A stretch of DNA of 64,000 nucleotides, from assembly GCA_002067095.1 (NCBI GenBank), contig MVQD01000086.1, forward strand, positions 21,029 to 85,028, in the 5' to 3' direction. The translations under genes and the position numbers were made by a program. The notes under the pieces are model-generated. The model saw only the letters and a list, made by a program, of their open reading frames with translations, did not search any database and had not been told where the DNA came from. Positions 16,985 through 48,315 of this stretch are shown one piece after another (the first letter of the stretch is position 1; every line of letters starts with the position of its first letter). The DNA comes from Methanoregulaceae archaeon PtaB.Bin056 (lineage in GTDB: Archaea; Halobacteriota; Methanomicrobia; Methanomicrobiales; Methanospirillaceae).

Positions 16985-17000
16985 TTCAAAATAATATAAA
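16985..17000. promoter_or_regulatory. Degenerate TTCAA-N6-TTGAA dyad at the ArsR start
   Basis: TTCAA-AATAAT-ATAAA keeps one perfect half site and three of five bases of the other. It ends one base before the ArsR start codon (complement of 16984), the same placement seen for the perfect copy at 48300. A TATATAG element at 17012-17018 lies beside it. Probably the autoregulatory operator. Confidence 0.5.
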
Positions 17001-17071
17001 ATACCTGGCTCTATATAGAACTTTAGTGAACTGCTGATAGGAGAAGGGCAGACTTAATAGAGGGAATATAC

Positions 17072-17387
17072 GTGAGCGAGGTGGACCTTGTCCCCTGTAA
17101 CCCGGACAAGGACGCATCAGATCTTGAAAAGGAGATCTGTTCCTGGGTTGCCCGATACGCCGCTGACCATGGATGGGTGCTTAACCCTGACTGCCGTGTC
17201 CTGGACAATAGTGATCAGGGGACTTGCGGGGAACTGCAAAAAGTTCGGCAGGCCCTATTGCCCCTGCCGTATCCGGAGCGGGAACCCGGAAAAAGACCAG
17301 GATATTGTCTGCCCCTGCGTCTTCCACAAAGACGAGGTATCAACCGATGGACACTGCCACTGCAACCTGTTCTACCAGTCCGGTTAA
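17072..17387 (+). pseudogene. Ferredoxin-thioredoxin reductase catalytic chain, frameshifted
   Basis: Frame one, from GTG 17072, reads MSEVDLVPCNPDKDASDLEK up to NPDCRVLDN. Frame two resumes with VIRGLAGNCKKFG and ends in FYQSG. Together they give a full-length FTR beta-type chain with all iron-sulfur and redox cysteines (NPDC, GNC, CPCR, CPC, CHC). One extra base near 17210 (AATAGTG where AATGTG is expected) breaks it. Such chains reduce thioredoxins with electrons from a [4Fe-4S] cluster. In this redox and metalloid setting it would feed the small thioredoxins further on. Decay or an assembly error. Confidence 0.75.
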
Positions 17388-17472
17388 AAAAGGAGGATGA
17401 GGGAACACGCACCACTGCCTTGTCGATAGGGGTGCTCACATCACAGTAACATCTACAGCTCTTTCCCACTAA

Positions 17473-17488
17473 TTCAATTTTTCTTGAA
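17473..17488. promoter_or_regulatory. TTCAA-N6-TTGAA operator before DUF2193 gene
   Basis: An exact 16-bp dyad (TTCAA, TTTTTC, TTGAA) in the AT-rich spacer, 93 bases before the ATG at 17581. It is one of five exact copies in the window, all upstream of genes in the metalloid island. Confidence 0.75.
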
Positions 17489-17580
17489 TAAATTTGATAA
17501 AGGATCAGAGTTCAGTGACCATTGTTGCCTTCCCGATGTTGCCACGAACAACCGGGAGAGTACCAAGAGGTGAAAGAAGA

Positions 17581-19080
17581 ATGACCGAACTCTACAAAAA
17601 GATGGTCCACGAGGCGATGGCTGCCCAGCGGGCCGACGTCGGGATGATAAAGAAGAAGCGGGGGCAGGCATTCGTCATTGCGGATGCAAAGGTCTACCTC
17701 GACGCGGTGAAGACGATGAAGCCGGCAGGGGACCAGTCAAAGGCGGTCTTTGCCCTTCACACAAATTCGGTCAAAGCCCATTTCGACGTTCTTGAAGGAC
17801 TGACCAAGACAGTCAGGCCCGAGGACGATCCCTTCGTCGAGCACTACCAGACCCCTGTTGTCCTCGAGATCCTCTATGACCAGGACCCGGCGTTCAAAAA
17901 GAGCGTCGATGCATTTGTAAAAGCAATCAAAAAGTCCGAAGCACTGATCGGCCGGGAGTCTGCACGCCGGTATGCAGGGTTCTACGGCCCGACATGCGTC
18001 GTTGATTTTGCCCTTATCCCGGGGAGCACGAGCAATGTCGTGAACCAGGTCCTGCAAAAGACTGACATCCCCGTGGCCCACAAGCAGGCAATCCTTGCAT
18101 CAAAGTCCTGGGGGATGAACACGTCCTATGGTATCGGGGAAGTATTTGCCCACGAGACCGAAAAAGGTGCGACCATCGCTGATGCGGTCAAGGCTGAGAT
18201 AAAGATGCTGCAGGAGGTCTATGACAGCCCGGTCGAGACTCAGGCAAAGCTGATGGACGATGCCGGCATGACCTCGTTTGACTGCCGGAAGTACATGGCA
18301 GGGTACCGGAAGAGGATGGAGTCTACGGTCAGGGCTGCTATCGACGATGGTGTCCACTACGGCAACATCGTGACCATCCCTGCGTATTGCGTGGGGGATA
18401 TTGCCCACCACATCGCCCAGTCCACCTTCAACATGTGCAAGGACGATGTCATCATGGCAACGATTGAGGCTGCCACTGAAGTGATGGACAGGAACCTGAA
18501 TGCTGCAGTACCGAAGTTTAAGAACGAATACGACGTCCTCTCGGTTGCAACCGGGGCGTCGGCATGCGCTGCTGAATACCTGCTCGAACTGGACGGGTTC
18601 AACGCCATCATGGTGGTCGACCTCCTCACGAAGCGGTGGCATAACTACGTCCAGCTGTACCCGCGCCGCGGGGCAGCGGCCGAACTGCACAACTGCGACT
18701 TCATGGACATGATCTACCGGGGCTGGAAGTACATCGACAAGGCCCGGAGAGCCCAGAACGGGCAGCCCGGCATGCTGAAACCGAAGGTGGGCGGCTTCGA
18801 GGTCGACCTCTCGCCCATCCATGAGAACGAGGTGCTGATGAACCCGCAGCGGTATGCGTACCCGGCGTGTGCCATCACGGTCCGGGCATCCGCGATGCTC
18901 CGGCTCGCCGATTACCCGTGCCTCCTGACGAGCGAACCGGTCACCGCGACCCTCATGACCAACATCATCGCCCTGCATAAGGAGGTTGCCGCAGCTCCCG
19001 CCCGTATCTGCAAGGACTGTGCATCGGCCGCCCTGATGGACTTCCGTCACTGCTATTGCCAGTGGAAGGAAGCGGTCTGA
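17581..19080 (+). CDS. DUF2193-type methanogen protein
   Basis: The ATG at 17581 has AGAGGTGA upstream; the longer in-frame start at 17494 has none and would cover the promoter. The roughly 499-residue soluble protein matches the size and motifs of the archaeal DUF2193 family, known almost only from methanogens and without assigned function. It is cysteine-containing, with a C-terminal cluster ICKDC...RHCYCQW that could hold a metal or metalloid. It heads a run with a DUF2180 protein and an aquaporin and carries the TTCAA-N6-TTGAA dyad in its promoter. I infer metalloid-responsive expression; the biochemical role is open. Confidence 0.75.
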   Translation: MTELYKKMVHEAMAAQRADVGMIKKKRGQAFVIADAKVYLDAVKTMKPAGDQSKAVFALHTNSVKAHFDVLEGLTKTVRPEDDPFVEHYQTPVVLEILYDQDPAFKKSVDAFVKAIKKSEALIGRESARRYAGFYGPTCVVDFALIPGSTSNVVNQVLQKTDIPVAHKQAILASKSWGMNTSYGIGEVFAHETEKGATIADAVKAEIKMLQEVYDSPVETQAKLMDDAGMTSFDCRKYMAGYRKRMESTVRAAIDDGVHYGNIVTIPAYCVGDIAHHIAQSTFNMCKDDVIMATIEAATEVMDRNLNAAVPKFKNEYDVLSVATGASACAAEYLLELDGFNAIMVVDLLTKRWHNYVQLYPRRGAAAELHNCDFMDMIYRGWKYIDKARRAQNGQPGMLKPKVGGFEVDLSPIHENEVLMNPQRYAYPACAITVRASAMLRLADYPCLLTSEPVTATLMTNIIALHKEVAAAPARICKDCASAALMDFRHCYCQWKEAV

Positions 19081-19104
19081 ACTACGTTGGAAAGGTGAGA
19101 ACGC

Positions 19105-19314
19105 ATGAAATGTTACGTATGTGCAAAGGAAGGGCGTTCCTCGGATGCGGTCGCAGTCTGCATCGTGTGCGGGATGGGGCTCTGCAAAGAGCATGCCATG
19201 CGCGAGGAACTGGAGATGTGGGAAGGGGGCTACCCCTTCCCGGCCCGGAGGGTGAAGGCAAAGATACCACGGATACTCTGTCCCGAGTGCTACCAGGCAC
19301 TGAAGGGGAAGTGA
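19105..19314 (+). CDS. DUF2180-type small zinc-binding protein
   Basis: The 69-residue protein has the family layout: MKCYVCAKEG at the start, CIVCGMGLCKEHAMREE in the middle and ILCPECYQ at the end, giving four CxxC-type pairs and a histidine for two zinc sites. It lies 24 bases behind the DUF2193 gene and 4 bases before the aquaporin gene, so it is surely cotranscribed. Function is unknown; it resembles B-box or ribbon-type binding modules. Confidence 0.85.
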   Translation: MKCYVCAKEGRSSDAVAVCIVCGMGLCKEHAMREELEMWEGGYPFPARRVKAKIPRILCPECYQALKGK

Positions 19315-19318
19315 GACG

Positions 19319-20074
19319 ATGAGCGATCTCGCAAAGCGTTGCATTGCAGAACTTGCAGGAACGGCGCTCCTTGTTTACTTCGGCGCGGGTGCCGCGGCGA
19401 TCACCCTCATGATCGCACGCGGGACAGATACGGGGACACCGTTCAACATCGGGATTGGCGCACTGGGGGGGCTGGGGGACTGGTTTGCCATCGGTATGGC
19501 GTTCGCCATCGTGATCGCCGCAGTCATCTATTCCATGGGCAGGGTCTCGGGTGCCCATATCAACCCTGCAGTGACTGTCGCGCTCTGGGCAACGAAGAGG
19601 TTTCCCTCCGGCGATGCCGGTGCGTACATCGTTGCCCAGTTGATCGGGGGAGCTCTTGGCAGCCTGCTGTTTGCTGCCAGTGCCGGTATGGACGCGGTCA
19701 CGGTCGGGGGGCTCGGCGCCACCGCCCCCTTCCCCGGGATCGGCTACGGGCAGGCGATCCTCGCCGAAGCCATCGGGACCTTCGTCCTGATGATGGTCAT
19801 CATGGGGATTGCCGTCGATAAGAAGGCTCCCCAGGGCTTTGCCGGGCTGATCATCGGGTTAACAGTCGGAGGGATGATCACGACAACCGGCAACATCGCG
19901 GGAGCATCGCTCAATACGGCCCGCACCTTTGGCCCGTACCTGATCGATTCCCTCCTCGGCGGACCGGACCTCTGGGTGTATTTCCCGATCTACATTGTCG
20001 GGCCCATAATCGGCGCGATCCTCGCGGCATTCTTCTATGACTATCTCGCGGGAGGGGAGAATTCAACCGAGTGA
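19319..20074 (+). CDS. aqpM: AqpM-like aquaglyceroporin with an NTA second motif
   Basis: The 251-residue protein has six membrane helices and the two half-helix signatures of the MIP family. The first is canonical (GAHINPAV, about residue 80). The second reads GASLNTART instead of NPA. Archaeal AqpM conducts water and small neutral solutes. Aquaglyceroporins also pass As(OH)3, and some bacterial ars operons use one as the exit route. Its place between DUF2193/DUF2180 and the convergent arsM gene fits such a role. The Pro-to-Thr change in the selectivity motif is unusual and could alter the pore. Confidence 0.85.
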   Translation: MSDLAKRCIAELAGTALLVYFGAGAAAITLMIARGTDTGTPFNIGIGALGGLGDWFAIGMAFAIVIAAVIYSMGRVSGAHINPAVTVALWATKRFPSGDAGAYIVAQLIGGALGSLLFAASAGMDAVTVGGLGATAPFPGIGYGQAILAEAIGTFVLMMVIMGIAVDKKAPQGFAGLIIGLTVGGMITTTGNIAGASLNTARTFGPYLIDSLLGGPDLWVYFPIYIVGPIIGAILAAFFYDYLAGGENSTE

Positions 20075-20123
20075 AGACACTGGAAGGCAAGGGGGTGGCC
20101 CTTGTCCCCCCCGCTCCTCCGGC

Positions 20124-20963
20124 TCACCGTACGGCATTCTTCTCTCGTTTGATCGCGTGAATCAGGATGCGTGCGAGGCATCCTTCGACCTCTTGTTTTT
20201 CCGGGACCTGGAGATTGCCGGCAGCATCCCGGGCCATCGGATCATTCAGGGCACAGTCCAGGGAAAACGGCGTCTCCTTTACAATATGCACATCCTCAAA
20301 GCCTGCAGCCTCAACAGTATCAATATACTCCTGCCGCCGCATCGCCCCAGAGACGCATCCCACGTAGGCTTCTACCGATTGCTGGAGAAATTCAGGAAGG
20401 GGCTTTAAAAGAACGGTATCTGATACGATCAAACGACCGCCGTTTTTCAGGACGCGGAACGCCTCGCGGAAGACCTGCGGCTTGTCAGGGGAGAGGTTGA
20501 TGACACAGTTGGAGAGGACCACGTCAACAGAGTTGTCTGCAACCGGCAGGTGCTCTATCTCTCCCAGGCGGAACTCGATATTCCGGATATCTCCCTTTCG
20601 CGCAGTCTCGCGTGCCCTTGCGACCATCTCAGGGGTCATGTCGACACCGATGACCTTCCCGGTCTCCCCGACCCTCCGGGCCGCAAGGAAGCAGTCAAAG
20701 CCAGGTCCGGCGCCAAGGTCGAGCACTGTCTCTCCCAGAGAGAGGGACGCGATCGCGACCGGGTTTCCGCAGCCGAGTCCGAGATTTGCCCCCTCGGGGC
20801 TTGCGGCAAGATCCTCATTGCTGTAACCCACCTTTTGCGCAATCGTGTCCGCGGTCTTGGCTGATCCGCAGCACGACGAGGAAGGGCCGCAGCACGAACG
20901 CTGCTGCAGGGCGACCTTGGCATACCCTTCCCGAACATTCATCCTAATTTTTTCTTCTGACAT
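20124..20963 (-). CDS. arsM: Arsenite S-adenosylmethionine methyltransferase ArsM
   Basis: The 279-residue enzyme has the SAM motif LDLGAGPGFDC and the ArsM hallmarks: N-terminal cysteine cluster SCCGPSSSCCG, GLGCGNP, NCVINLSPDK and VGCVSGA. The last three hold the three arsenite-binding cysteines. It methylates As(III) stepwise in the cytoplasm, giving methylated and volatile arsines. It is transcribed leftward, 12 bases behind an AbrB-type gene, and faces the aquaporin gene. Length and motifs are normal for the family. Confidence 0.93.
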   Translation of the reverse strand: MSEEKIRMNVREGYAKVALQQRSCCGPSSSCCGSAKTADTIAQKVGYSNEDLAASPEGANLGLGCGNPVAIASLSLGETVLDLGAGPGFDCFLAARRVGETGKVIGVDMTPEMVARARETARKGDIRNIEFRLGEIEHLPVADNSVDVVLSNCVINLSPDKPQVFREAFRVLKNGGRLIVSDTVLLKPLPEFLQQSVEAYVGCVSGAMRRQEYIDTVEAAGFEDVHIVKETPFSLDCALNDPMARDAAGNLQVPEKQEVEGCLARILIHAIKREKNAVR

Positions 20964-20975: not shown

Positions 20976-21239
20976 TTACAGGGCCTCTTTGACCATGGGT
21001 CCAACCACGGTTTTCACGGGTTCTGACAACTGGTCGACCGGAATAAGCATGATACAGCAGACCTGTCCCCCCTTCTCCCAGCTGACCGCGGCGAGCTTGT
21101 CGCCGGGGTTGATCCCGGCCTTTGTCCTGAGCTCCTTTGGGATCACCATCTGTCCCCTATCATCCATGCTCACAATCGCCTCCACGCTGCAACGACCGCT
21201 CTGACCAGGCACGGGACAACATGCATCTTTCTTTGCCAT
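20976..21239 (-). CDS. Cysteine-tailed AbrB/SpoVT-type protein (HgcAB-associated type)
   Basis: The 87-residue protein has a swapped-hairpin AbrB domain (VEAIVSMDDRGQMVIPKELR, AGINPGDKLAAVSW) preceded by ACCPVPGQSGRC and containing QVCC in the second strand. These cysteine pairs distinguish the group often annotated as HgcAB-associated, which also travels with arsM. It is cotranscribed with arsM (12-base gap). A metalloid-sensing DNA-binding role is plausible, as is a metal-carrier role; no hgcA or hgcB is visible in this window. Confidence 0.8.
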   Translation of the reverse strand: MAKKDACCPVPGQSGRCSVEAIVSMDDRGQMVIPKELRTKAGINPGDKLAAVSWEKGGQVCCIMLIPVDQLSEPVKTVVGPMVKEAL

Positions 21240-21579: not shown

Positions 21580-21595
21580 TTCAATTGTATTTGAA
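21580..21595. promoter_or_regulatory. TTCAA-N6-TTGAA operator before ArsP permease
   Basis: An exact dyad (TTCAA, TTGTAT, TTGAA), about 140 bases before the permease ATG, followed by AATAATTGGAGGG. A 34-codon open frame with a good GGAGG starts at 21609 and could be a leader, but nothing about its product is recognisable. Confidence 0.75.
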
Positions 21596-21734
21596 ATAAT
21601 TGGAGGGATGAATGAAACCGCAATACCTGTGCATGATGCATGCGTTATCCAGGCGGGTCCCGGAATGGCGAAACGACGCATTCCTCGGGTTCAAGGCCCG
21701 AGGTACCGATAAAACTTCAGGGGGTGAATGAGGG

Positions 21735-22808
21735 ATGACGGATCCCATATTCGGGTCCCTCCTGCTTGGCTGGGAGACGCTTGCAGGGTATCTCCAGGAG
21801 CACGTCCTCACCTGCCTCGTGCCTGCGTTCTTCATCGCAGGAGCGATTGCGACCTTCATCAAGAAGGAGGCCATCCTCAAGTATTTCAGCCCTGATTCGC
21901 CAAAGTCAATCGCGTATGGCCTGGCCTCGATATCCGGGACCGTGCTTGCAGTCTGCTCCTGCACGATACTCCCCATGTTTGCCGGGCTCTTCAAGAGGGG
22001 GAGCGGGATCGGGCCTGCCACCACGTTTCTGTATGCCGGACCGGCTATCAACATCCTTGCCATTGTCTACACGGCAAAAGTGCTCGGGTTTGACCTCGGG
22101 ATTGCAAGGGCCGCCTTTGCAATCGTGATGTCAATTATCATCGGCCTCGTGATGGCGATGCTCTTCCGGTCCTACGATACGGAGACGAAGGAGAAGATGA
22201 AACTCATGCCCTCGGTCCCCGGCGGGGAGAAGGCAGAGCGGCCCCGCTGGGTTGTGCCCCTCTTCTTTGTCCTCCTGGTGGGAATCCTGATCACTGGCAC
22301 GTCACAGCTGGACTGGCTGATCAAGTTTCCCATCATCTACGCGATGACTCTCGTGATCGCCTACCTCCTGGTCTACTTCTTCGAGCGGGACGAGGTCACC
22401 GAGTGGGGATACGAGACCTGGGACCTGACAAAGAAGATCTTCCCCATCCTGATCATCGGGACCTTCTTTTTGGGGATGCTCGCATTCTTCCTCCCGCCCG
22501 AGACGTTCCGGCCGTTCTTCGGGACCAACTCGATACTCTCCACGCTCCTTGCAGCCATCGTCGGGACTATCCTGTACATGCCCACGCTCCTCGAAGTGCC
22601 TGTCATCGGGACAACGTTTGGCTATACGAGCGGGGTGATGGCGGGAGGCCCGGCACTCGCTCTCCTGCTCTCAGGGCCGAGTGTCAGCCTCCCCTCACTC
22701 CTCGTCCTCTACAGGATCATGGGGATAAAAAAGACAGCGGTGTATGCGGTATTGGTCATCATCTTCTCGGCCCTTGCAGGGTTTGCCTACGGGCTGTTTC
22801 TGGGGTAG
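21735..22808 (+). CDS. ArsP/DUF318-type permease
   Basis: The 357-residue protein has about eight to ten membrane helices and the diagnostic CSCTILPMFAGLFKRGSG motif near residue 75, followed by FLYAGPAINILA. In characterised ArsP proteins this cysteine region binds trivalent organoarsenicals for export; related members move Cu or Zn. The central soluble loop (about residues 150-175) is charged. With arsM on one side and thioredoxin-like proteins downstream, export of methylated arsenic is the most economical guess. Confidence 0.85.
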   Translation: MTDPIFGSLLLGWETLAGYLQEHVLTCLVPAFFIAGAIATFIKKEAILKYFSPDSPKSIAYGLASISGTVLAVCSCTILPMFAGLFKRGSGIGPATTFLYAGPAINILAIVYTAKVLGFDLGIARAAFAIVMSIIIGLVMAMLFRSYDTETKEKMKLMPSVPGGEKAERPRWVVPLFFVLLVGILITGTSQLDWLIKFPIIYAMTLVIAYLLVYFFERDEVTEWGYETWDLTKKIFPILIIGTFFLGMLAFFLPPETFRPFFGTNSILSTLLAAIVGTILYMPTLLEVPVIGTTFGYTSGVMAGGPALALLLSGPSVSLPSLLVLYRIMGIKKTAVYAVLVIIFSALAGFAYGLFLG

Positions 22809-23833: not shown

Positions 23834-24919
23834 ATGGATGTGACCGAGCGACGCCTGAGCACGTTTGAAAAATACCTCACCGTATGGGTAGTCCTCTGCA
23901 TCGTTGCAGGGATCGCTCTTGGAGCGATTGCGCCCGGTGTTGCCGTAGCCCTCGATTCCTTCTCTGTCTACCAGGTCTCGATCCCGATTGCAATAGCCCT
24001 CTTCTTCATGATGTACCCCATCATGGTGAAGATCGACTTTGCCGAGGTCCTCAAGGCCGCACGGACACCGAAACCCGTGGCCCTCACCCTCTTTGTGAAC
24101 TGGGCCATAAAGCCGTTCACAATGTATCTCCTTGCCACGTTCTTCCTCGGCTACGTCTTTGTCTCCTTCATCCCCGGGATTGATGTGCTTGCAGACGGGA
24201 GCACGGTCGAACTCTGGAGGAGTTATGTCGCAGGCTGCATCCTGCTTGGCATCGCACCCTGCACCGCAATGGTCCTGATGTGGAGCTACCTGGCACGGGG
24301 AAACGACGGCCTCACCCTGATCATGGTTGCCATCAATTCGCTCACCATGCTCGTCCTCTACGCGCCGCTCGGTGGGTTCCTCCTCGGGGTGAACGCGATG
24401 CCTATTCCCTGGGAAACCATCCTCCTCTCGGTCGCCACCTATGTCGGCCTCCCCCTCATTGCCGGGTACTACACGAGGAAATGGATAATCAGGAGGTGGG
24501 GTATGGCCTGGTTCGAGACAAAGTTCCTGCACGTTTTAACGCCGGTCTCGATAATTGCACTCCTGGGGACACTCGTCCTCCTCTTCACTTTCAAGGGGAA
24601 CGTCATTGTCGAAAACCCGGCAACCATCCTCTGGATTGCGATCCCCCTCTTCATCCAGACCATGCTCATCTTTTCCATCGGGTACTTCGCCCTGGCCCGC
24701 TGGCTGAAGCTCCCCTACCGGGACGCGGCACCCGCAGGGATGATCGGGGCATCAAACCACTTCGAGGTCGCGATTGCCACGGCAACCATTCTCTTCGGGC
24801 TTGGTTCCGGAGCAGCTCTCGCAACGGTGGTGGGAGTCCTGATCGAGGTGCCCGTGATGCTCATGCTTGTGAAGATCTGCCTGCGGACGCAGGGGTTATT
24901 CCGGAGTGAACCGGTATGA
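23834..24919 (+). CDS. acr3: Acr3-type arsenite efflux permease
   Basis: The 361-residue protein has ten membrane helices and the Acr3 signatures: [19 protein letters not shown], the essential cysteine in [20 protein letters not shown], and the C-terminal [10 protein letters not shown] with [10 protein letters not shown]. It exports As(OH)2O- driven by the membrane potential. A TATA-like GCATATATAG lies at about 23732. The stop overlaps the next start in ATGA. Confidence 0.93.
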
Positions 24920-26811: not shown

Positions 26812-27846
26812 GTGGCAAAGAGAAATGCGCTGCTGAAGTATGCAGCATTCACGAGAGAATACTATGCACTTATCATCATTGCAACCCTTCTCGTGGCAGT
26901 AGCAGTCGGGCTGGTCTCATCCGCTCCAGGCCAGGTTCTCCAGCAGTACAGCGTGCTGTTCATCGTGATCATGATCGGGGCGATGGGCTTCTCCATCACT
27001 TTCAAGAGCCTCAGTGCCTCCCTCAAGGAATGGTGTGCACGCTGCCTCTCGCTCGGACTGGTATTGAACTTCCTCTTTGCACCGTTCCTGTGCTGGCTCC
27101 TTGCACTCCTGCTTCTCCAGGAATATCCTGATTTTGCCGTGGGCCTCATCCTTATCGGCGCGGTCCCCTGCGCCGGGATGGCCATGGTATGGACCGGTCT
27201 CCTGAAGGGTGACCTCCCGCTCGCGACAGTCATCAATGCCGTGACGATGGTGCTCGCACCCTTCCTGATCCCACTGATCATGCTCTTTTTTGCCGGGCGC
27301 TTCGTCGTTATTGATACGGCTGCCATGTTTGTGCAGGTGCTCCTCACCGTCCTCTTACCCCTCCTTGTCGGCATATCCCTGCGGGAGATCCTTGAATGGA
27401 AGACCTGTGCCCACAAAAGCCAGGATGAACCCCAAATACGCGGCGCGAAAGGGAGGGAGAACAGCGTTCAGCATATACTCCCCGTCATGTCTGCAGTCTC
27501 CGCGACCATGGCAGTCCTGCTCATGTTCATGGCGATCAATACGAGCATCCCGCTCATAATCAAAAATCTGCAGGCAATAATACCGCTCATCGTATCCACC
27601 GTGGCAATTTTCCCTATTTTGTTCATTATATCGTACGCGATCAGCATACGGCTCTTCCCCCATGCCCAGAACATTGCCCTCACCTATTCTTCCGGAATGA
27701 AAAACCTCCCCATTGCCATCGGGATAGCCTCGGTCAGTTTCGGGGGGCTCGCGATGCTGCCAGTCGCGGTTGGATTTGCCTTCCAGATGCTGACCGCAGT
27801 CGGGTTTTACCAGGTGTACAAGAGATCATCTTTAGGCAACCGTTAA
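26812..27846 (+). CDS. Bile-acid/Acr3-superfamily permease, second arsenite exporter
   Basis: The GTG at 26812 lacks a strong ribosome site but gives the expected N terminus. The 344-residue protein has about ten helices and motifs parallel to Acr3: VPCAGMAMVWTGLLKGDLPL holds the cysteine, and ALTYSSGMKNLPIAIG the crossover region. It belongs to the arsenical resistance branch of the BASS/Acr3 superfamily, but is clearly different from the Acr3 at 23834. A charged loop of about 25 residues breaks helices 6 and 7. Substrate presumably arsenite or antimonite. Confidence 0.78.
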   Translation: MAKRNALLKYAAFTREYYALIIIATLLVAVAVGLVSSAPGQVLQQYSVLFIVIMIGAMGFSITFKSLSASLKEWCARCLSLGLVLNFLFAPFLCWLLALLLLQEYPDFAVGLILIGAVPCAGMAMVWTGLLKGDLPLATVINAVTMVLAPFLIPLIMLFFAGRFVVIDTAAMFVQVLLTVLLPLLVGISLREILEWKTCAHKSQDEPQIRGAKGRENSVQHILPVMSAVSATMAVLLMFMAINTSIPLIIKNLQAIIPLIVSTVAIFPILFIISYAISIRLFPHAQNIALTYSSGMKNLPIAIGIASVSFGGLAMLPVAVGFAFQMLTAVGFYQVYKRSSLGNR

Positions 27847-40677: not shown

Positions 40678-41070
40678 ATGACTTCCGGGAAGTTTCGCCG
40701 TGGTGGGACCGCGCTTCATGCCTATACCACCATCTTCAAGGCATTATCGGATGAAACACGCCTCAGGATCTATCTCCTCTTGGGAGAGGGCGAGCTCTGC
40801 GTCTGCCAGATCCAGGTCGCACTCGGGATGTCCCAGACCAAGATATCACGGCATCTTACAGTACTGCGGAATGCGGGCCTTGTTTTCGCCCGGAGGGACG
40901 GTCTCTGGATGTATTATTCGCGTACGGTCCCGGGTCCCCGCTCCCTTGGAAAATTTTTACCCCAACTCTCACACTGGCTTGAATCTGATGAAAAACTCAT
41001 GGCATCGGTTGTGTCAGACCCGCAATATGCGACACTGTCCCTGGAAGAAGTTGCGCGCATCGCAAAGTGA
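40678..41070 (+). CDS. arsR: ArsR-family regulator (second copy)
   Basis: The 130-residue protein has the classical ArsR winged helix: FKALSDETRLRIYLLL, the As(III)-binding ELCVCQIQ in the first recognition region, and TKISRHLTVLRNAG with DGLWMYYS. It ends the permease unit (42-base gap). It most likely reads the dyad at 39429; whether it also reads TTCAA-N6-TTGAA cannot be told. Confidence 0.93.
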   Translation: MTSGKFRRGGTALHAYTTIFKALSDETRLRIYLLLGEGELCVCQIQVALGMSQTKISRHLTVLRNAGLVFARRDGLWMYYSRTVPGPRSLGKFLPQLSHWLESDEKLMASVVSDPQYATLSLEEVARIAK

Positions 41071-41115: not shown

Positions 41116-41131
41116 TTCAAATTTTTTTGAA
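41116..41131. promoter_or_regulatory. TTCAA-N6-TTGAA operator before cooS
   Basis: An exact dyad (TTCAA, ATTTTT, TTGAA), directly after a TATA-like CATAAATAG at 41107-41115, so a bound repressor would block promoter access. The CooS ATG is 127 bases downstream. Confidence 0.78.
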
Positions 41132-41258: not shown

Positions 41259-43217
41259 ATGGAAGAAGAACCCAAACCAACCGTTGTCAGGGAACGGATT
41301 GAGGTGTGCGAACTTGACCGTGCACGCCTTTCCCTGATGAACCCCGAACTGATCGAACAGAAGAGGGAGAACAGGACGATAGACGAGGCGGCAAAGCCGT
41401 TCATCGAGCTCACGATGAAAGAGGGGATCGAGACTGTCTGGGACCGTTACGAGATGCAACAGCCCGAGTGCAAGTACTGTGCTGCCGGGATATCCTGCCA
41501 GCGGTGTGCGATGGGGCCCTGCCGGATCATCCCGCCGCACCGGGTCCGGGGTGTCTGCGGGGCTGACGCAGACCTGATCGTGGCAAGGAACCTGCTGGAC
41601 CAGATCGCGACCGGGGCTGCCGCCCATTCGGATCACGGGAGAGAGATCGTCCTTACCCTGTATGGAATCGGCAAAGGGACGGTGAACGACTATGTCATAT
41701 CCGACCGGGAAAAACTCGTGCGCCTCGCCACCGAGTATGCCCAAAACCCCCAGGGAAAGGACGATAAAACGATTGCAGCTGAACTGGGCCAGGCAATGCT
41801 CGACGAATTCGGTACCGTCAAGGACTCTCTCCAGATTGCGTCCAGGGCACCTGCCGCTACGAGGGAGATCTGGGAGAAGGCAGGAATTGTACCCCGGGGC
41901 ATAGATCGGGAAGTCGTCGAGGCCATGCACCGTGTCCAGATGGGTGTTGCCGCAGACTATGCCAACACCCTGGTCCACGGGTTGCGGACCTCGCTGTCGG
42001 ACGGGTGGGGAGGCTCTAGCCTCGCAACCGAGATATCAGACGTCCTCTTCGGGACACCGAAACCAAACGAGTCTCTGGTCAACCTGGGAGTAATTAAGAA
42101 AGAATTTGTCAACATCTCCCTCCACGGCCATAACCCCATGCTCTCTGAAATGGTCGTGAAAGCAGCAAAAGATCCGGAGATCCAGTCATTGGTAAAGAAG
42201 GTCGGGGCAGCCGGGATCAATCTTGTAGGGCTCTGCTGCACCGGCAATGAACTGCTGATGCGCAAAGGCATCCCCAATGCCGGCAACCACTTCAACCAGG
42301 AGCTCGTAATCACCACCGGAGCCCTCGAAGCCATGGTGGTCGACTACCAGTGCATCTTCCCCTCCCTCCCGCGGACAGCAAGCTGCTACCACACCCACAT
42401 CATCTCTACCAGCCCGAAGTCCCGGATCCCGGGCTCCTACTACTTTGAGTTCGAGCCGGAGACCGCGTATGCGACAGCCAAAGCGATCGTGAAGATGGCG
42501 GTCGAGAACTTCCCGAACCGGAACCCTGACCGGGTCTTCATCCCGGTCGAGCCGGTGAAGGTGACGACCGGATTCTCGGTCGAGGCAATCAGGGGTGCGC
42601 TTGGGGGGACATTCAAGCCGCTCATCGACCAGATCGCGTCCGGGAACATCCGTGGAGCAGTCGGCATTGTTGGATGCAATAATCCCAAGGTAAAGCACGA
42701 CTACGGCCACGTTACGCTTTCAAAGGAGCTGATCAAGCGGGACATCCTCTGCGTGGAGACCGGCTGTGCCGCCATTGCATCAGGAAAAGCAGGGCTGCTC
42801 CAGCCCTCCGCGGCATCCCTCGCAGGTCCGGGTCTTGGGCCTGTCTGTAAGTCTCTTGGAATTCCTCCTGTCCTCCACATGGGCTCCTGCGTGGACAATG
42901 CCCGTATCCTGCACCTGGCAGCGGAGCTTGGGAATGCCCTTGGCGTAGGCATCCACCGCCTCCCCATTGCAGGAGCAGCCCCCGAGTGGTATTCCCAGAA
43001 GGCGGTCTCCATCGGCGCATACTTCGTCGCATCTGGGGTCTATACGGTGCTCGGGGTCATGCCGAAGATCACGGGAAGCCCCGCGGTGGTGTCTTTACTG
43101 ACAGAAGGCCTGAAAGGCGTCGTGAACGCCTCGTTTGCGGTGGAACCCGATCCGCTCAAGGCCGCGGACCTGATCTCGTCTCACATCGAGAGGAAGCGGG
43201 CCGAACTCGGCATTTAG
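41259..43217 (+). CDS. cooS: Monofunctional Ni-Fe carbon monoxide dehydrogenase CooS
   Basis: The 652-residue enzyme has the B/D-cluster cysteines in CKYCAAGISCQRCAMGPCRI (about residues 72-91), HSDHGRE, the C-cluster region LVGLCCTGNE, GCNNPK, ETGCAA and MGSCVDN. It oxidises CO to CO2 or the reverse, passing electrons to ferredoxin. It is not the acetyl-CoA decarbonylase subunit, since no cdh genes adjoin. A ferredoxin gene follows. Its promoter carries the metalloid-island dyad, which is unexpected for a carbon-metabolism enzyme. Confidence 0.93.
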   Translation: MEEEPKPTVVRERIEVCELDRARLSLMNPELIEQKRENRTIDEAAKPFIELTMKEGIETVWDRYEMQQPECKYCAAGISCQRCAMGPCRIIPPHRVRGVCGADADLIVARNLLDQIATGAAAHSDHGREIVLTLYGIGKGTVNDYVISDREKLVRLATEYAQNPQGKDDKTIAAELGQAMLDEFGTVKDSLQIASRAPAATREIWEKAGIVPRGIDREVVEAMHRVQMGVAADYANTLVHGLRTSLSDGWGGSSLATEISDVLFGTPKPNESLVNLGVIKKEFVNISLHGHNPMLSEMVVKAAKDPEIQSLVKKVGAAGINLVGLCCTGNELLMRKGIPNAGNHFNQELVITTGALEAMVVDYQCIFPSLPRTASCYHTHIISTSPKSRIPGSYYFEFEPETAYATAKAIVKMAVENFPNRNPDRVFIPVEPVKVTTGFSVEAIRGALGGTFKPLIDQIASGNIRGAVGIVGCNNPKVKHDYGHVTLSKELIKRDILCVETGCAAIASGKAGLLQPSAASLAGPGLGPVCKSLGIPPVLHMGSCVDNARILHLAAELGNALGVGIHRLPIAGAAPEWYSQKAVSIGAYFVASGVYTVLGVMPKITGSPAVVSLLTEGLKGVVNASFAVEPDPLKAADLISSHIERKRAELGI

Positions 43218-43370: not shown

Positions 43371-43601
43371 ATGATCCATGTCAGAATTCAACGGGAAGAC
43401 TGCACCTCGTGCAGCACCTGCTGGGAGACCTGCCCCGAGGTGTTCGAACAGAACAAAGACGACGGTTTCAGCCAGATCAAAGAACGGTTCAGGGTGAAGG
43501 GAAAAATTACTGAGGGAGAAATACCAGAAGACCTGAAAAATTGTGTCGATGATGCAGCAGAATCATGCCCGGTGAGCATCATCGCAATCGGGGACGCGTG
43601 A
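43371..43601 (+). CDS. Single-cluster [4Fe-4S] ferredoxin
   Basis: The ATG at 43371 is preceded by GGTGA; the longer frame from 43254 has no signal. The 76-residue protein has CTSCSTCWETCP near the N terminus and CP near the C terminus, the cysteine spacing of monocluster ferredoxins. It lies 153 bases behind cooS and probably takes its electrons, although its own promoter cannot be excluded. Confidence 0.85.
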   Translation: MIHVRIQREDCTSCSTCWETCPEVFEQNKDDGFSQIKERFRVKGKITEGEIPEDLKNCVDDAAESCPVSIIAIGDA

Positions 43602-43808
43602 GAGGGATTCCTCTCCCATCATCCCGTACATTTTTAGTTCGAGGGGCAATATTTTCTGGCAAAATGATATACGGGGGATGTACGCCGGACAGGAATTCCT
43701 GACTAATTCCGGGTTCATTGGCGTTTTTTTGCAGCTGGTGCGGTGAAAACAATGAAAATACGCCCGGCCGGTTCTTCGAAACTACTATATTCCGGGTCTT
43801 CCTATATT

Positions 43809-43824
43809 TCAATATATTTTGAAT
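43809..43824. promoter_or_regulatory. TTCAA-N6-TTGAA operator before the thioredoxin/DsbD gene
   Basis: An exact dyad (TTCAA, TATATT, TTGAA) touching a TATA-like CCTATATT at 43802-43809, 52 bases before the ATG at 43877. It would control the run leading to arsC, arsF and arsG. Confidence 0.78.
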
Positions 43825-43876: not shown

Positions 43877-45085
43877 ATGCGTGATGGAATGGCACAAATA
43901 TTGCATGATATGAGAATACAGTTTACCGTATCCCTTGTCTTTGCGGTACTGTTACTCTCTCTGATCTCTCCGTGTGCACTCGGGGAAGAGACTGGCTCGG
44001 TCCTGAACCCATCCCAGGGAGACGAGGTCACCAGCGGTCCGGTTCACCCTGACCACCGTTTCACTGAAAATGGTCCAGTGCTTGTCTTTTTCTACAACAC
44101 CAACTGTGCAGACTGCATCAGGACCCACCCCTATGTCCTGGAGTACATCAGCAGGCATCCCGAACTCGAGACCCACCTCATCGACATCGGCGCAAGTTTT
44201 GAAAACAGGGAGCTCTTCACCGTGTACAAGGATGCATACAGGACCGGGTTCATCCCGGTCCCCTCGCTCTTCGTGGGGAATGCAACCCTTATTGGGTTTG
44301 AAGAGATCACTCTGCATCTCGAAGACGCGGTGAGAGTCCAGATGCCGGGAAGCGGAAGCCCCGTTGCTTCCCCTCCCTCATTTTTTAGCCTCGGAGACGT
44401 GGCGGCCCAGGACCTCACCATTCCCCTGGTGATTGCCGCAGGGCTTGCCGACGGGATCAACCCCTGCGCCTTCTCCGTCCTGATCATCCTCCTCTTCACG
44501 CTGGCCGCGGCAGGCTCCCGCAGGAACATGGTGCTCGTGGGAGCAAGTTTCATCGGGGCAGTCTTTGTCTTCTACTTCCTCTCGGGGATGGGCCTCTTCT
44601 ACGTCATCCAGTCCGCGGCAATATCGCGGGCGATCGGCATCATTGCCGCGATAATCGCCTTTGCCCTCGGCATATTGAGCCTCTATGACGGGATCCGGGG
44701 CGATGGAAAGCCCGCGCTTGCGATCCCGGAATCAAAGAAAGGGATGATCGACCGGTATATCCGGAAGGGATCGGTCCCCGCGGCGCTCATCCTCGGAGTC
44801 CTCGTCGGGATGTTCGAGCTTCCCTGCACGGGCGGGATCTACCTTGCCATCCTCTCGCTCATCTCAAACCAGATGACCCTTGCCGAGGGGATCCCGCTCC
44901 TGCTCGTGTACAACATCTTCTTTGTCATGCCGCTTGTCCTGATCCTCTGCGTGGTCGTGCTGGGGCTTCCGCTCGAGCGCGTCGACCGCTGGAGGCAGGA
45001 GCACCGGGGTGCAGTCCGAATCATCATGGGACTTGTATTGATCTGCCTCGGGCTGCTGCTGGCAGGCACTTTGATAGCGGGGTAG
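43877..45085 (+). CDS. Secreted thioredoxin-domain plus DsbD/CcdA-type membrane protein
   Basis: The 402-residue protein has a signal sequence (about residues 12-36), then an extracytoplasmic thioredoxin-like domain with FFYNTNCADCIRTHP (CxxC). Six DsbD/CcdA helices follow with the conserved cysteines in ADGINPCAFSVLI and FELPCTGGIYL. It should carry electrons across the membrane from cytoplasmic thioredoxin to outside thiols. It heads the arsC-arsF-arsG run, pointing to reductive handling of arsenic or its proteins at the surface. Confidence 0.85.
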   Translation: MRDGMAQILHDMRIQFTVSLVFAVLLLSLISPCALGEETGSVLNPSQGDEVTSGPVHPDHRFTENGPVLVFFYNTNCADCIRTHPYVLEYISRHPELETHLIDIGASFENRELFTVYKDAYRTGFIPVPSLFVGNATLIGFEEITLHLEDAVRVQMPGSGSPVASPPSFFSLGDVAAQDLTIPLVIAAGLADGINPCAFSVLIILLFTLAAAGSRRNMVLVGASFIGAVFVFYFLSGMGLFYVIQSAAISRAIGIIAAIIAFALGILSLYDGIRGDGKPALAIPESKKGMIDRYIRKGSVPAALILGVLVGMFELPCTGGIYLAILSLISNQMTLAEGIPLLLVYNIFFVMPLVLILCVVVLGLPLERVDRWRQEHRGAVRIIMGLVLICLGLLLAGTLIAG

Positions 45086-45142: not shown

Positions 45143-45922
45143 ATGATCCAGGAATCAATCGGGTTCATCGGGGGAGGCCGGGTGGTCCGTATCCTCCTCC
45201 ACGGGTGGAAAGAGGCAGGGGCGCTCCCCGAGCGTATCACTGTCAGCGACCCAAACAGGGCGGCGCTCGACCATCTCGCGGGTGAATTTCCAGGTGTCAG
45301 GGTAGTGCAGGACGGAAATGCCCTCGCAGCCGGCCAGGACCTGGTCTTTCTCGCTGTCCACCCGCCGGATGCCGGGAAGGTCCTTGGCGAAATTGCCCCG
45401 TCGCTCAAGCCAGATGCCATCGTCGTCTCGCTCATGCCCAAGCTGACGATTGCACAACTTTCCGGGATGCTCGGCGGTTTTGGCAGGATCGTGCGGATGA
45501 TCCCAAATGCCCCTTCGATGGTGATGTGCGGGTATAACCCGGTCGCATTCCCGCGGGAAATGGCGACCGGGGAGCGCCGGAAAGTGGAAACGCTCCTCGA
45601 ACCGCTCGGGCGGTATTTTGAGGTGCCCGAAGGGGACCTCGAGGCGTATGCGGTGATCTCTGCCATGGGGCCGACCTACCTCTGGTTCCAGTTCTATGAA
45701 CTGGAGAAGATCGCCGTATCCTTCGGGCTTTCACCAGAAAAGGCTGCAGAGGCCGTCCGGAAGATGGCGGAAGGAGCCGTGCAGACGATGATGTGGTCCG
45801 GGCTCACCCCTGAGCAGGTCATGGATACCATTCCTGTCCGGCCGCTTGGAGAGGATGAGGCGGCAATCAAAGAGGTGTACCGGAAACGCCTGCCGGCCCT
45901 CTTCCAGAAACTGAAGGGCTGA
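45143..45922 (+). CDS. Pyrroline-5-carboxylate reductase-like protein
   Basis: The 259-residue protein has an N-terminal Rossmann motif IGFIGGGRVVRIL, the ProC-type LAVHPPDAGKVL and IVRMIPNAPSMVMCGYNP, and a helical dimerisation domain. True ProC enzymes read GxGxM and make proline; divergence here suggests another substrate. It lies inside the arsenic run between the DsbD-like gene and arsC, an unexpected position. Another NAD(P)-dependent oxidoreductase role is possible. Confidence 0.72.
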   Translation: MIQESIGFIGGGRVVRILLHGWKEAGALPERITVSDPNRAALDHLAGEFPGVRVVQDGNALAAGQDLVFLAVHPPDAGKVLGEIAPSLKPDAIVVSLMPKLTIAQLSGMLGGFGRIVRMIPNAPSMVMCGYNPVAFPREMATGERRKVETLLEPLGRYFEVPEGDLEAYAVISAMGPTYLWFQFYELEKIAVSFGLSPEKAAEAVRKMAEGAVQTMMWSGLTPEQVMDTIPVRPLGEDEAAIKEVYRKRLPALFQKLKG

Positions 45923-45971
45923 ACAACTTGGACGTGCACGTGGTCGAGGCAGGGCAGGAAGTGAGTGGCCG

Positions 45972-46400
45972 ATGAAAAAGCGGGTTCTTTTCATCTGCAC
46001 CCACAACTCTGCACGGTCTCAGATGGCCGAGGGTTACCTGCGGGCACGGTATGGCGACCGGTATGATGCGTTTTCGGCCGGAACTGATATTTCACCCATC
46101 CATCCCCTCGCGATTGCGGTGATGCGGGAGATTGGAATTGACATCTCAGGCCAGCGCGCAAAACCACTGTCGGATCTTGCGGGAATGGAGATGGATGTCG
46201 TGGTGACCGTGTGCGATTCCGCAAAGGCCGCCTGCCCGTTCTTTCCCTGGGCAAAAGAGACCCTGCATATCGCGTTCCCTGACCCCGGCGGCGTGGCGGG
46301 GCCGGAGGAGAGGATGATTGGGGTATTCCGATCGGTGCGAGACCAGATCACTGCATTGATCGATGAGTATTTCGGGAAGGGAGATATCCGTGACCGATGA
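45972..46400 (+). CDS. arsC: Thioredoxin-coupled arsenate reductase ArsC
   Basis: The 142-residue protein is of the low-molecular-weight phosphatase type: the P-loop FICTHNSARSQMAEG carries the first catalytic Cys, VTVCDSAKAACPFFP the resolving cysteines, and FPDPGG the general acid. It reduces arsenate to arsenite using thioredoxin. It overlaps the next gene by 11 bases. Confidence 0.93.
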   Translation: MKKRVLFICTHNSARSQMAEGYLRARYGDRYDAFSAGTDISPIHPLAIAVMREIGIDISGQRAKPLSDLAGMEMDVVVTVCDSAKAACPFFPWAKETLHIAFPDPGGVAGPEERMIGVFRSVRDQITALIDEYFGKGDIRDR

Positions 46401-46779
46401 CGAACGACCTCTCCTCCTCCTGACCTGCTCGGGGATCTCCCACGCAGGGCAGCTCACCACCCTGACAGGGCACTGGCTCCATTGCCTCCACCCCACCATA
46501 GTCTCCCGCCACCTGAAGCTCACAAACCTCAAACGCCCACTTGAGAGTGAATTGTCGGACGGTGAATGCCTTATCGCGGTGGACGGGTGCGAAAAATGCT
46601 GTGCGAAGAAGAGAATCGATCTCATCGGGAAAGTTCCGGATATATACCTCGTCGCAACGGAGGAAGGAATCACCAAACGCGGGATGGAAGAGCCGAGGTA
46701 CGATGAGATAGAAGGCCTCTCCGGGGTTATTCTAAACACGATCAGGAATAAAAAAGAAGAACTAAGAATGAGAGAGTGA
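46390..46779 (+). CDS. Short DGC-type zinc-binding protein
   Basis: GTG 46390 is chosen because GGGAG precedes it; it overlaps arsC by 11 bases. The 129-residue product has TCSGISHAGQ and DGCEKCCAKKR, the cysteine motifs of the DGC family, but lacks the N-terminal Cys-rich part of the relative at 23318. Coupling to arsC suggests a linked role with thiol-bound metalloid. Confidence 0.78.
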   Translation: MTDDERPLLLLTCSGISHAGQLTTLTGHWLHCLHPTIVSRHLKLTNLKRPLESELSDGECLIAVDGCEKCCAKKRIDLIGKVPDIYLVATEEGITKRGMEEPRYDEIEGLSGVILNTIRNKKEELRMRE

Positions 46780-46782
46780 AAG

Positions 46783-47253
46783 ATGAGCGCGCATAAAGGT
46801 TTTTTTATACTGCTGCTTGCCATGGTGCTGCTCGTGCTGGCGGTCCTTGCCGCAGGGTGCACCACCCAGGCCGAACAGAAGGATACTCCGGAAAAGAACT
46901 TAACCGGGTCAGTTGAGAGAGTCGAAGTGTATCATTTCCATGCGACCCGGCAATGTTACTCATGCATCGTGCTCGGGGAATATGCAGAGGAGACGATGAC
47001 TACCTATTTTGCGCCCGAGATGCGATCAGGGAAAGTGGTGTTTGGCCATGTGAACGTGGATCTCCCTGAAAACAAGGCGGTATTCGAAAGATACCAACCG
47101 ACAGGATCATCTCTCTGGATCGGTGTCTATGACAGGGACGGGTTCCACAAGGAGCAGGACATCAAGGTGTGGTACAAACTCGGGGACAAGGACGAATACA
47201 TGGCGTACCTCAAAGAAGTCATTGAGAAGAGACTGGCAGGAGACTTCTCTTAA
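46783..47253 (+). CDS. arsF: ArsF-like secreted lipoprotein
   Basis: The 156-residue protein has a lipoprotein signal (VLAAGC at about residue 26), then a thioredoxin-like region with YHFHATRQCYSCIVLG, the redox cysteine pair. It resembles the ArsF family, named from the arsEFG locus that reduces nitroaromatic arsenicals and exports the products. It stops one base before the arsG-like gene starts. No arsE reductase is visible in the window. Confidence 0.8.
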   Translation: MSAHKGFFILLLAMVLLVLAVLAAGCTTQAEQKDTPEKNLTGSVERVEVYHFHATRQCYSCIVLGEYAEETMTTYFAPEMRSGKVVFGHVNVDLPENKAVFERYQPTGSSLWIGVYDRDGFHKEQDIKVWYKLGDKDEYMAYLKEVIEKRLAGDFS

Positions 47254-47982
47254 ATGGACCTCATGGGTGTCATGGAGGTCATGGGGACAAGCGGGATCCC
47301 CCTTGTGGCGGCCTTCTTCATCGGTCTAATGATGACATTTTCTCCCTGTCCACTCGCGACAAACATTACCGCGATCGCCTTCATCTCAAAGAAGATAGGT
47401 GACAGTCGGCATACGCTCCTTGTCGGAACACTCTACAGCCTCGGGAGGATGGTCGCCTATATCGGGCTGACCGCCCTGATCGTTATTGCAGGCTTAAACA
47501 TCCAGGCAATCTCTTTCTTCCTCCAGGAATACGGGGAGAAGCTCATCGGGCCGTTCCTCGTCTTGATGGGGATCCTGATGCTGGAGGTCGTCGACATTCC
47601 GCTTCCCGGCGGCCACGGCTCGCTGCAGAAACTCGAGATGTATCTTGGCGAGAAAGGATACTTCGGGGGGTTCGTGCTTGGGATCATCTTTGCCCTCGCC
47701 CTTTGCCCCTTCTCCGCGGTCCTCTTCTTTGGAATGCTCGTCCCGATTGCATTAAAGACAGGGGATGCGATCTTTGTCCCCGCAGTCTTTGCCATCGCCA
47801 CGGCGCTCCCGGTCATCGTCATATCTGTCATGCTTGTGCAGGGAGTCTCCCGTATCTCGGGGATGCTGTCGACGATGCAGAAGATGGAGAGATGGATAAA
47901 GAGGGCCGTTGCTGCGGTCTTTATCCTGGTGGGAATCTATTACTGTTTCATTGTCTATGGCACCTTACTCCTGGGGACATGA
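47254..47982 (+). CDS. arsG: ArsG-like CcdA-fold permease
   Basis: The 242-residue protein has six helices and the two cysteine-proline motifs FSPCPLATNITAIAF and ALCPFSAVLFFG, placing it with DsbD/CcdA-type transporters of the ArsG group. ArsG is described as exporting trivalent aromatic arsenicals; the fold could equally pass electrons to the CxxC of the ArsF-like lipoprotein encoded directly upstream. Confidence 0.83.
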   Translation: MDLMGVMEVMGTSGIPLVAAFFIGLMMTFSPCPLATNITAIAFISKKIGDSRHTLLVGTLYSLGRMVAYIGLTALIVIAGLNIQAISFFLQEYGEKLIGPFLVLMGILMLEVVDIPLPGGHGSLQKLEMYLGEKGYFGGFVLGIIFALALCPFSAVLFFGMLVPIALKTGDAIFVPAVFAIATALPVIVISVMLVQGVSRISGMLSTMQKMERWIKRAVAAVFILVGIYYCFIVYGTLLLGT

Positions 47983-48299
47983 ACTCTCCGCAAAGGTCGC
48001 GATGTGAATAAACCCTCAACAATTTTTTCACACATATGATGCCGGGGATCTCTACCAGCCAAATAGCATTTGGCCCTTTGTCCGATTACAACAGTGGGGG
48101 AGAGTTCTCTCTCTTCCCCTGCTCCTTTCCTCATGCATGAAATAGTGGCGAAGGAACCCATCCCCGGCAACCGGGCAACGCCTGCCCCAAAAGGCCGTCC
48201 GGTCATACACTTCCTCTGATGACTACCCAGTATGCAATTCTGACGCCCCGGTTGAGAATGCGCAAATGGGCAAGACCTGAAAGTATTTGAATGGCAAAA
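47983..48299. other. Spacer between arsG and the small secreted gene
   Basis: No convincing gene. A T-run at 48022-48027 may end the ars transcript, and the right edge contains the promoter of the following gene. Confidence 0.4.
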
Positions 48300-48315
48300 T
48301 TCAACAATTGTTGAA
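48300..48315. promoter_or_regulatory. Perfect palindromic TTCAA-N6-TTGAA operator touching a start codon
   Basis: TTCAACAATTGTTGAA is a perfect 16-bp palindrome whose last base is directly followed by the ATG at 48316. There is no ribosome site, so the message is probably very short-leadered or leaderless, and a repressor here would cover the transcription start. Confidence 0.82.

Follow-up and report, generated by a model that had tools for sequence, protein, structure and literature searches.

Five exact dyads in the arsenic region

Does a single regulatory switch join CO dehydrogenase and proteins of unknown function to the arsenic resistance (ars) genes of a methanogen? The question is raised by a 64,000-nucleotide stretch of the genome of Methanoregulaceae archaeon PtaB.Bin056 (contig MVQD01000086.1, positions 21,029 to 85,028; hereafter the window), which carries an island of ars genes and, within it, repeated copies of the inverted repeat (dyad) TTCAA-N6-TTGAA. 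An earlier reading of the letters without database searches (the sequence-only reading) had taken five such copies as the mark of one regulon, with two ArsR proteins as candidate regulators. We performed a pattern search for the dyad in the window and in 100 dinucleotide-preserving shuffles, and extended it to the whole assembly (2,239,790 bp in 106 contigs, 95.65% complete; the window lies in contig C86).

The search identified five exact dyads, located at 17473..17488 (TTCAATTTTTCTTGAA), before the gene for a DUF2193 protein; at 21580..21595 (TTCAATTGTATTTGAA), before arsP1, which encodes an ArsP-type permease, with a TATA-like element beginning 26 bp upstream; at 41116..41131 (TTCAAATTTTTTTGAA), before the CO dehydrogenase gene cooS, with a TATA-like element beginning about 5 bp past the dyad; at 43808..43823 (TTCAATATATTTTGAA), before a thioredoxin/DsbD-like gene, with a core that is identical in two related loci (L056 and L066); and at 48300..48315 (TTCAACAATTGTTGAA), where the ATG of a small exported protein (48316) directly abuts the dyad. 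All five copies of the sequence-only reading were thus recovered, with 17473, 21580, 41116 and 48300 as given and 43809 corrected to 43808, and their positions upstream of the named genes were borne out; no exact dyad lies inside any accepted gene of the window. The spacer is six bases at all five sites, as had been claimed, and each site consists of inverted TCAA arms with T as the outer position. The rarity expected by chance also held, since the shuffles contained 0.08 exact dyads on average and none of the 100 reached five.

In the whole assembly, the same five exact dyads were found with no sixth, all within 31 kb, so that outside the island no gene contains or follows an exact copy; the reversed control pattern occurred once. 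At one mismatch, the assembly holds 31 further dyads against 10 control sites, and in a sample of ten of these 31, eight coincide at least partly with predicted open frames (one at the 3′ end only) and two do not. The dyad observation is therefore confirmed, and the reading of the five dyads as a shared switch is supported in silico by the comparisons that follow.

The dyad is kept before ars-linked genes of Methanolinea relatives

We next compared the window genome with 12 Methanolinea congeners (13 genomes in all). The congeners contain 34 exact dyads, 18 of which are ars-linked, that is, they stand before arsP1, DUF2193, thioredoxin/DsbD, the small secreted gene, arsR1 or a DGC gene (a site of genome G026 at a contig end was counted as ars-linked by its expected promoter region). 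All 18 ars-linked sites have spacers with at most two G/C. The remaining 16 are followed by no window-gene homologue in the next 400 bp, and 11 of these have at least three G/C in the spacer. It should be noted that the reversed control pattern underestimates the background (16 non-ars sites against two control matches in the 12 congeners), and for this reason we preferred the location of sites to the ratio of sites to controls. The length of the covering open frame did not separate the two classes cleanly, two ars-linked sites lying in chance or extended frames of more than 400 codons.

The conservation of individual sites, which the sequence-only reading had proposed checking in related genomes, extends to orthologous island genes. 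Before DUF2193, a dyad with at most one mismatch is present in six of the six Methanolinea loci read (exact in the window, L049, L057 and L058; one mismatch in L054 and in L041, which has a fragment of the gene), and the exact dyad also precedes DUF2193 in L072, from another genus. The small secreted gene has an exact dyad abutting its ATG in four of four loci of the genus (the window, L039, L053 and L056). DUF2193 and the small secreted protein are thus conserved dyad-bearing members in the genus, as judged from sequence comparison.

ArsR1 is the likely regulator of the dyad

The first of the two ArsR proteins, ArsR1 (16556..16984, − strand), is an ArsR/SmtB-family regulator with a winged helix that matches PF01022 (HTH_5; 9.9e-12, 45 bits against a cut-off of 22) and NF033788 (HTH_metalloreg; 65.2 against 55). 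Its metal-site helix contains Cys75-x-Cys77 (PLCVC), both cysteines being present in 81 of 81 aligned members, and its N-terminal extension contains Cys29 and Cys31, found in 49 and 52 of the 81, respectively. An imperfect dyad (16985..17000), with mismatches at two of ten positions, abuts the arsR1 start codon and is likely an autoregulatory operator. A dyad with at most two mismatches abuts the ArsR1 start in eight of the ten Methanolinea orthologues, window included (seven of nine in the congeners, with one or two mismatches).

ArsR1 orthologues (threshold of at least 50% identity; observed 50-76%) are encoded in nine of the 12 congeners, and ars-linked dyads occur in exactly ten of the 13 Methanolinea genomes, the ten with an ArsR1 orthologue. 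The remaining three (G022, G023 and G027) have neither. One of them, G027 (76% complete), has ACR3 and an orthologue of the second regulator, ArsR2, and lacks ars-linked dyads.

Beyond the genus, we scanned a collection of species genomes with the ArsR1 alignment and kept the best 80 of 181 loci, which we take to belong to Methanomicrobiales groups or to be assigned only to Euryarchaeota. Every 5+5 inverted repeat with a spacer of 0-14 was then counted in the roughly 300 bases before each extrapolated ArsR1-family start, with expected counts taken from the rest of the same 80 loci. This unbiased search returned TTTCA-N8-TGAAA in 50, TTCAA-N6-TTGAA in 49 and ATTTC-N10-GAAAT in 35 of the 80 loci (expected 0.61, 0.95 and 0.25), and these top three repeats are overlapping frames of one 20-bp operator-like sequence, ATTTCAA-N6-TTGAAAT. 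Within −300 to +30, the best dyad has at most one mismatch in 65 of the 80 ArsR1-family upstream regions, compared with 1.9% of 1366 windows drawn at random from these loci. Altogether, the 80 loci contain 106 exact dyads, of which 93 precede a window-gene homologue by no more than 350 bp (ArsR1 in 70 cases).

These loci also bear on whether the composition of AT-rich intergenic DNA could by chance account for the five copies, an explanation suggested by the AT-rich spacers and by the position of the sites in AT-rich leaders. The same half-sites with spacers of 4, 5, 7 and 8 occur at 3, 1, 4 and 1 sites, compared with 106 for a spacer of six, and nine control dyads yielded 0-3 sites each in the 80 loci. 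Taken together with the shuffles and the island-only occurrence in the assembly, the ArsR1-family search led us to reject a chance origin, which we regard as extremely improbable.

Since in relatives the dyad adjoins an ArsR1-like gene, the dyad is likely the switch of ArsR1. Our favoured interpretation, which we hold with good though incomplete confidence, is that the five dyads would be operators of one arsenic-sensing repressor, ArsR1, holding five units off until a trivalent metalloid is bound.

In relatives, the arsR1 upstream regions (L140, L143, L173, L186, L191, L251, L252, L253 and others) contain pairs of dyads that are often 51-53 bp apart. Among 49 dyad pairs spaced 16-200 bp (at most one mismatch), 25 are at 51-53 bp, 17 of them at precisely 52, which corresponds to about five turns of the helix, and a TATA-like box lies between the two dyads. 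Such spacing suggests cooperative or two-sided operators in the relatives; the window arsR1 has no second copy at 51-53 bp.

Promoter geometry and proposed mechanism

To describe the placement of the dyad, we located TATA-like boxes with a simple 8-base score in 29 dyad-bearing promoters, with start positions inferred. At arsP1, the highest-scoring TATA-like 8-mer starts 24-26 bp upstream of the dyad in eight of 12 promoters; at thioredoxin/DsbD, four of five promoters have one of their three top-scoring 8-mers starting 23-26 bp upstream of it. These distances suggest that the dyad covers the probable transcription start of both. In the four promoters of the small secreted gene, the TATA-like element (score 6 of 8) lies 14-22 bp before the dyad. 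A second layout, in which the TATA-like box follows the dyad at about 5 bp, was found for DUF2193 (four of five promoters, score 8 of 8), cooS (two of two, scores 7 and 6) and an aldehyde ferredoxin oxidoreductase gene of genome G044 (one of one, score 7); at these genes the dyad probably abuts the B recognition element (BRE) and TATA box. The DUF2193 site of the window has a weak TATA at that position (6 of 8). A composite dyad-plus-TATA pattern, built from the two cooS promoters and L072, which match it by construction, gave 17 matches in 232 genomes, including 11 before arsP1 (seven), cooS (two), DUF2193 (one) and aldehyde ferredoxin oxidoreductase (one), and six unassigned.

Both layouts recur among orthologous promoters and would fit steric repression, and because the dyads lie near the probable start or against a TATA-like box, repression relieved by metalloid is predicted. 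In such a mechanism, an ArsR1 dimer would bind ATTTCAA-N6-TTGAAAT, which would lie approximately at the expected transcription start of arsP1, thioredoxin/DsbD, the small secreted protein and arsR1, and, at DUF2193 and cooS, would abut with its right arm the TATA-like box that begins about 5 bp further on. The bound repressor would block TATA-binding protein (TBP)/transcription factor B (TFB) or RNA polymerase. Metalloid bound at Cys75/Cys77, with the N-terminal Cys29/Cys31 as possible extra ligands, would release ArsR1; candidate inducers are As(III), methylarsenicals and other thiophilic ions. The units released would provide efflux (ArsP, ACR3, ArsG), reduction (ArsC, ArsF, thioredoxins) and a channel, and would include as newcomers DUF2193, the small exported protein, and CO dehydrogenase with its ferredoxin.

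Several observations weigh against regulation of all five units by ArsR1. The dyad at the window arsR1 has two mismatches, two of the ten Methanolinea orthologues have no dyad within two mismatches abutting the start, and no site with two or fewer mismatches was found upstream of five of the 80 ArsR1-family genes; moreover, the 80 loci were selected for carrying ArsR1 and are mutually related. Genome G086 (L200), in which arsR1 and arsR2 are adjacent, has no dyad within one mismatch in 3.4 kb, and in G024, G028, G029 and G030 the ArsR1 orthologue (50-54% identity) is on another contig or distant from the dyads. One further Methanolinea DUF2193 gene (L128) has no dyad in front of it. At the promoters, the TATA score is only 6 of 8 for thioredoxin/DsbD and the small secreted protein, and a dyad upstream of TATA, as at DUF2193 and cooS, would also suit an activator. 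Finally, of 34 cooS promoters examined, out of 62 family matches listed (one with just 223 bases upstream), 32 have no dyad at one mismatch or less.

Archaeal activators use positions upstream of the TATA box, so the layout at DUF2193 and cooS raises the possibility of an activator as the binding protein; an unrelated regulator from elsewhere in the genome is a further candidate. However, the dyad goes together with ArsR1 genes, and its location approximately at the transcription start of arsP1, thioredoxin/DsbD, arsR1 and the small protein suits repression better. ArsR proteins are nearly all repressors. We therefore consider an activator or unrelated regulator quite improbable, and slightly more so than the involvement of the second ArsR protein.

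This second protein, ArsR2 (40678..41070, +), was the other candidate of the sequence-only reading. It has an ELCVC-type metal-site motif and its gene ends 45 bp before the dyad of cooS, directly upstream of which it is encoded; ArsR2 also precedes a dyad in G026 and G031. Its own unit in the window (cation efflux, ArsP2, ArsR2) nevertheless has no dyad within two mismatches before its leading cation-efflux gene, a single two-mismatch site (39274) overlapping the end of that gene. The co-occurrence is no closer: G020, G021 and G025 have ars-linked dyads, yet their best ArsR2 match is ArsR1 itself (with one further, weaker match in G025), and G027 shows the converse, as described above. Among 13 ArsR2-orthologue loci, an exact dyad is present in six and absent from seven, including that of G086, where ArsR1 is also present; three of the six stand before cooS, thioredoxin/DsbD or DGC units and three beside a convergently oriented ArsR1 gene (60-67% identity). 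The dyad as an operator of ArsR2 is thus unsupported by both its own promoter and co-occurrence, and we think it unlikely. Of the two proposed regulators, ArsR1 stands as the likely cognate one.

In four relatives (L202, L203, L204 and L200, from G087, G096, G098 and G086), the ArsR1 and ArsR2 genes converge, with a few hundred bases between their ends, and the two regulators may therefore be a conserved pair.

The probable link to CO dehydrogenase

The cooS gene (41259..43217, +) encodes a monofunctional anaerobic CO dehydrogenase catalytic subunit (TIGR01702, 682.9 bits against a cut-off of 478) whose cysteine-bearing regions align, by eye, with those of a solved CO dehydrogenase. It is likely co-transcribed with the gene of a single-cluster 4Fe-4S ferredoxin (43371..43601, +; PF13459, 3.8e-16). 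The link of cooS to the dyad is both the weakest and the most interesting part of the finding: the genus retains the links to DUF2193 and the small secreted protein, whereas that to cooS is nearly private to this genome.

One explanation is that the cooS copy alone is a product of chance or hitch-hiking, cooS having been inserted between arsR2 and the thioredoxin/DsbD unit while remaining functionally outside the arsenic response. Genome G026 (L056) keeps the order arsR2-dyad-thioredoxin/DsbD without an intervening cooS, its own cooS being on a separate small contig, and for this reason cooS and its ferredoxin look inserted in the window. The exact dyad was present in only one of the 34 cooS promoters, that of the window, and a second cooS of the same genome (G000:C106:55343-57295; L102, L257), 85% identical, has no dyad. 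Of six cooS genes near ACR3, moreover, four (G024, G028, G042 and G058) are preceded by no dyad within one mismatch.

Against this explanation, the window site matches at ten of ten positions and its TATA-like box is spaced as for DUF2193. Furthermore, in G036, of the same family, cooS lies 3.6 kb past ACR3 in an arsR1-arsP1-ACR3-arsM cluster and is preceded by a dyad with one mismatch in a near-identical dyad-TATA stretch, at −149 compared with −143 here. Dyads within one mismatch are thus found at two of the six cooS genes near ACR3 and at none of the 28 others examined. In addition, cooS lies within 20 kb of ACR3 in six (G000, G024, G028, G036, G042 and G058) of the 27 family genomes with both genes, though the six represent two genera only, pointing to few independent events. 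A cooS copy arising from chance or hitch-hiking is, in our assessment, a real though minor possibility; cooS as a member of the ArsR1 regulon is likely real in this genome but recent, as far as promoter sequences indicate.

A further case was found in G044, of the same family (L275:13019-14856), where the gene of an aldehyde ferredoxin oxidoreductase (PF01314, PF02730) has an exact dyad directly before it and a TATA-like box placed as at cooS. With a ThiF gene and a cation-efflux gene after it, this gene makes up the end of an ars cluster, and its product appears to be a second ferredoxin-linked oxidoreductase under an exact dyad. Considering CO dehydrogenase in the window and in a second genus, and aldehyde ferredoxin oxidoreductase in another genome, a wider picture may be drawn, which we put forward tentatively and with more doubt than conviction: the Methanomicrobiales could have their own ArsR subfamily and operator code, and this regulon could have repeatedly recruited ferredoxin-linked carbon oxidoreductases, so that arsenic stress would call up low-potential electrons for the reduction of arsenate and organoarsenicals, with DUF2193 and the secreted small protein as new arsenic-response proteins.

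Comparison with known ArsR systems

The recognition sequence resembles that of bacterial ArsR proteins, for which a core consensus ATCAA-N6-TTGAT (PMC9137774) and a related 12-2-12 repeat, TAxAxTCAAATA-xx-TATTTGAxTxTA (PMC6555750), are described. Shared features are the inner TCAA-N6-TTGA arms, the six-base spacer, the location over the promoter and the proximity to arsR genes. In contrast, the outer arm base here is T/A instead of A/T, the sequence extends to ATTTCAA-N6-TTGAAAT, the promoters are of the archaeal TATA type, and the dyads serve five scattered units that include cooS and DUF2193. The literal ATCAA-N6-TTGAT was absent from all 80 ArsR1-family upstream regions. In kind, the dyad would be an ArsR operator of the bacterial style, altered at the outer base of each arm.

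ArsR1 itself shares the winged-helix domain and the C-x-C of the metal-site helix with ArsR/SmtB metalloregulators such as Escherichia coli ArsR and Staphylococcus aureus CadC, and its sequence matches in the PDB include SmtB, the cadmium efflux accessory protein (CadC) and CzrA. It differs from such metalloregulators in an N-terminal extension with an invariant GG and a C-x-C pair in about 60% of members, and in its recognition helix (LSYHL). The pairing of N-terminal and helix cysteines presumably resembles the site of CadC.

Control of more than one operon also has a precedent in Pseudomonas putida, in which two ars operons are under ArsR control through similar operators and arsenite releases the repressors (PMC7994332). 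The window differs in that one operator type reaches genes without a known arsenic role. The literature searched contained no paper describing this operator for methanogens, and none on an arsenic regulon with CO dehydrogenase. For hydrogenotrophic methanogens, our analysis proposes a concrete operator sequence, together with a regulator, through which arsenic genes would be controlled, and points to a likely arsenic role for DUF2193 and the small exported protein. A dyad before cooS and genes of unknown function would tie these to the arsenic response, and raises the question of why arsenic would switch on CO dehydrogenase.

Genes of the island

The DUF2193 gene (17581..19080, +) is the first of a DUF2193-DUF2180-aquaporin series, continued by a small DUF2180 protein (19105..19314, +; PF09947, 1.6e-37) and an aquaglyceroporin-family channel (MIP; 19319..20074, +; PF00230, 4.6e-45). 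Its match to PF09959 (8.3e-275) was scored on a longer frame from 17494, and its ATG is probably at 17581, as suggested by homologues of 499 amino acids. An AlphaFold model (mean pLDDT, the predicted local distance difference test, of 72.5; built on 30 sequences with identities of 71% or more) had no Foldseek match in the PDB below E = 0.2, and for this reason we assign no fold. The only paper found on the family (PMC9431491) reports good conservation among methanogens, a higher abundance on pyrite and a possible role in binding Fe-S clusters.

Among the resistance genes, ACR3, ArsM, ArsF and ArsG scored above NCBIfam cut-offs; ArsC fell below them and reached that of Pfam LMWPc. The arsenite methyltransferase gene arsM (20124..20963, −; NF008823) belongs to the island context and has no dyad directly before it. 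The adjacent ORF at 20976-21239 (−) encodes an AbrB-like protein above the cut-off for HgcC, the HgcAB-associated protein. Next, arsP1 (21735..22808, +; PF03773, 3.1e-71) probably shares its transcription unit with the arsenite efflux gene ACR3 (23834..24919, +; TIGR00832). Between the arsP1 dyad and arsP1, a short open frame (21608-21734), to which G026 (L054) has by eye a similar one, may encode a leader peptide.

The thioredoxin/DsbD-like membrane protein (43877..45085, +), with weak DsbD_TM and SfLAP matches below cut-off, heads the arsC-arsF-arsG operon. This gene is followed at 45143..47982 (+) by genes for a ProC-like reductase, an ArsC-like protein with a low-molecular-weight phosphatase fold, a DGC protein, ArsF and ArsG, so that the gene order of the sequence-only reading was right in outline. 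The small exported protein (48316..48615, +) has 99 amino acids and, by eye, a signal-peptide-like start. It had no match in Pfam or NCBIfam and its gene was missed by a simple gene caller; a protein search returned ten homologues including itself, the only named one being from Methanolinea, and these support the gene.

Other ORFs of the window include those at 13867-16091 (−), for a DsrE-domain protein and a sulphur-transport (YeeE-like) protein, whose homologues adjoin arsR1 in G021, and those at 29528-37485 (−), inside the island, where an AAA ATPase (1374 amino acids) adjoins a VWA-domain protein (1281 amino acids) in a MoxR/VWA-like pair (Pfam). Near ACR3, a second transporter of the sodium-bile-acid-symporter family is encoded at 26812-27846, beside a DUF169 gene (25874).

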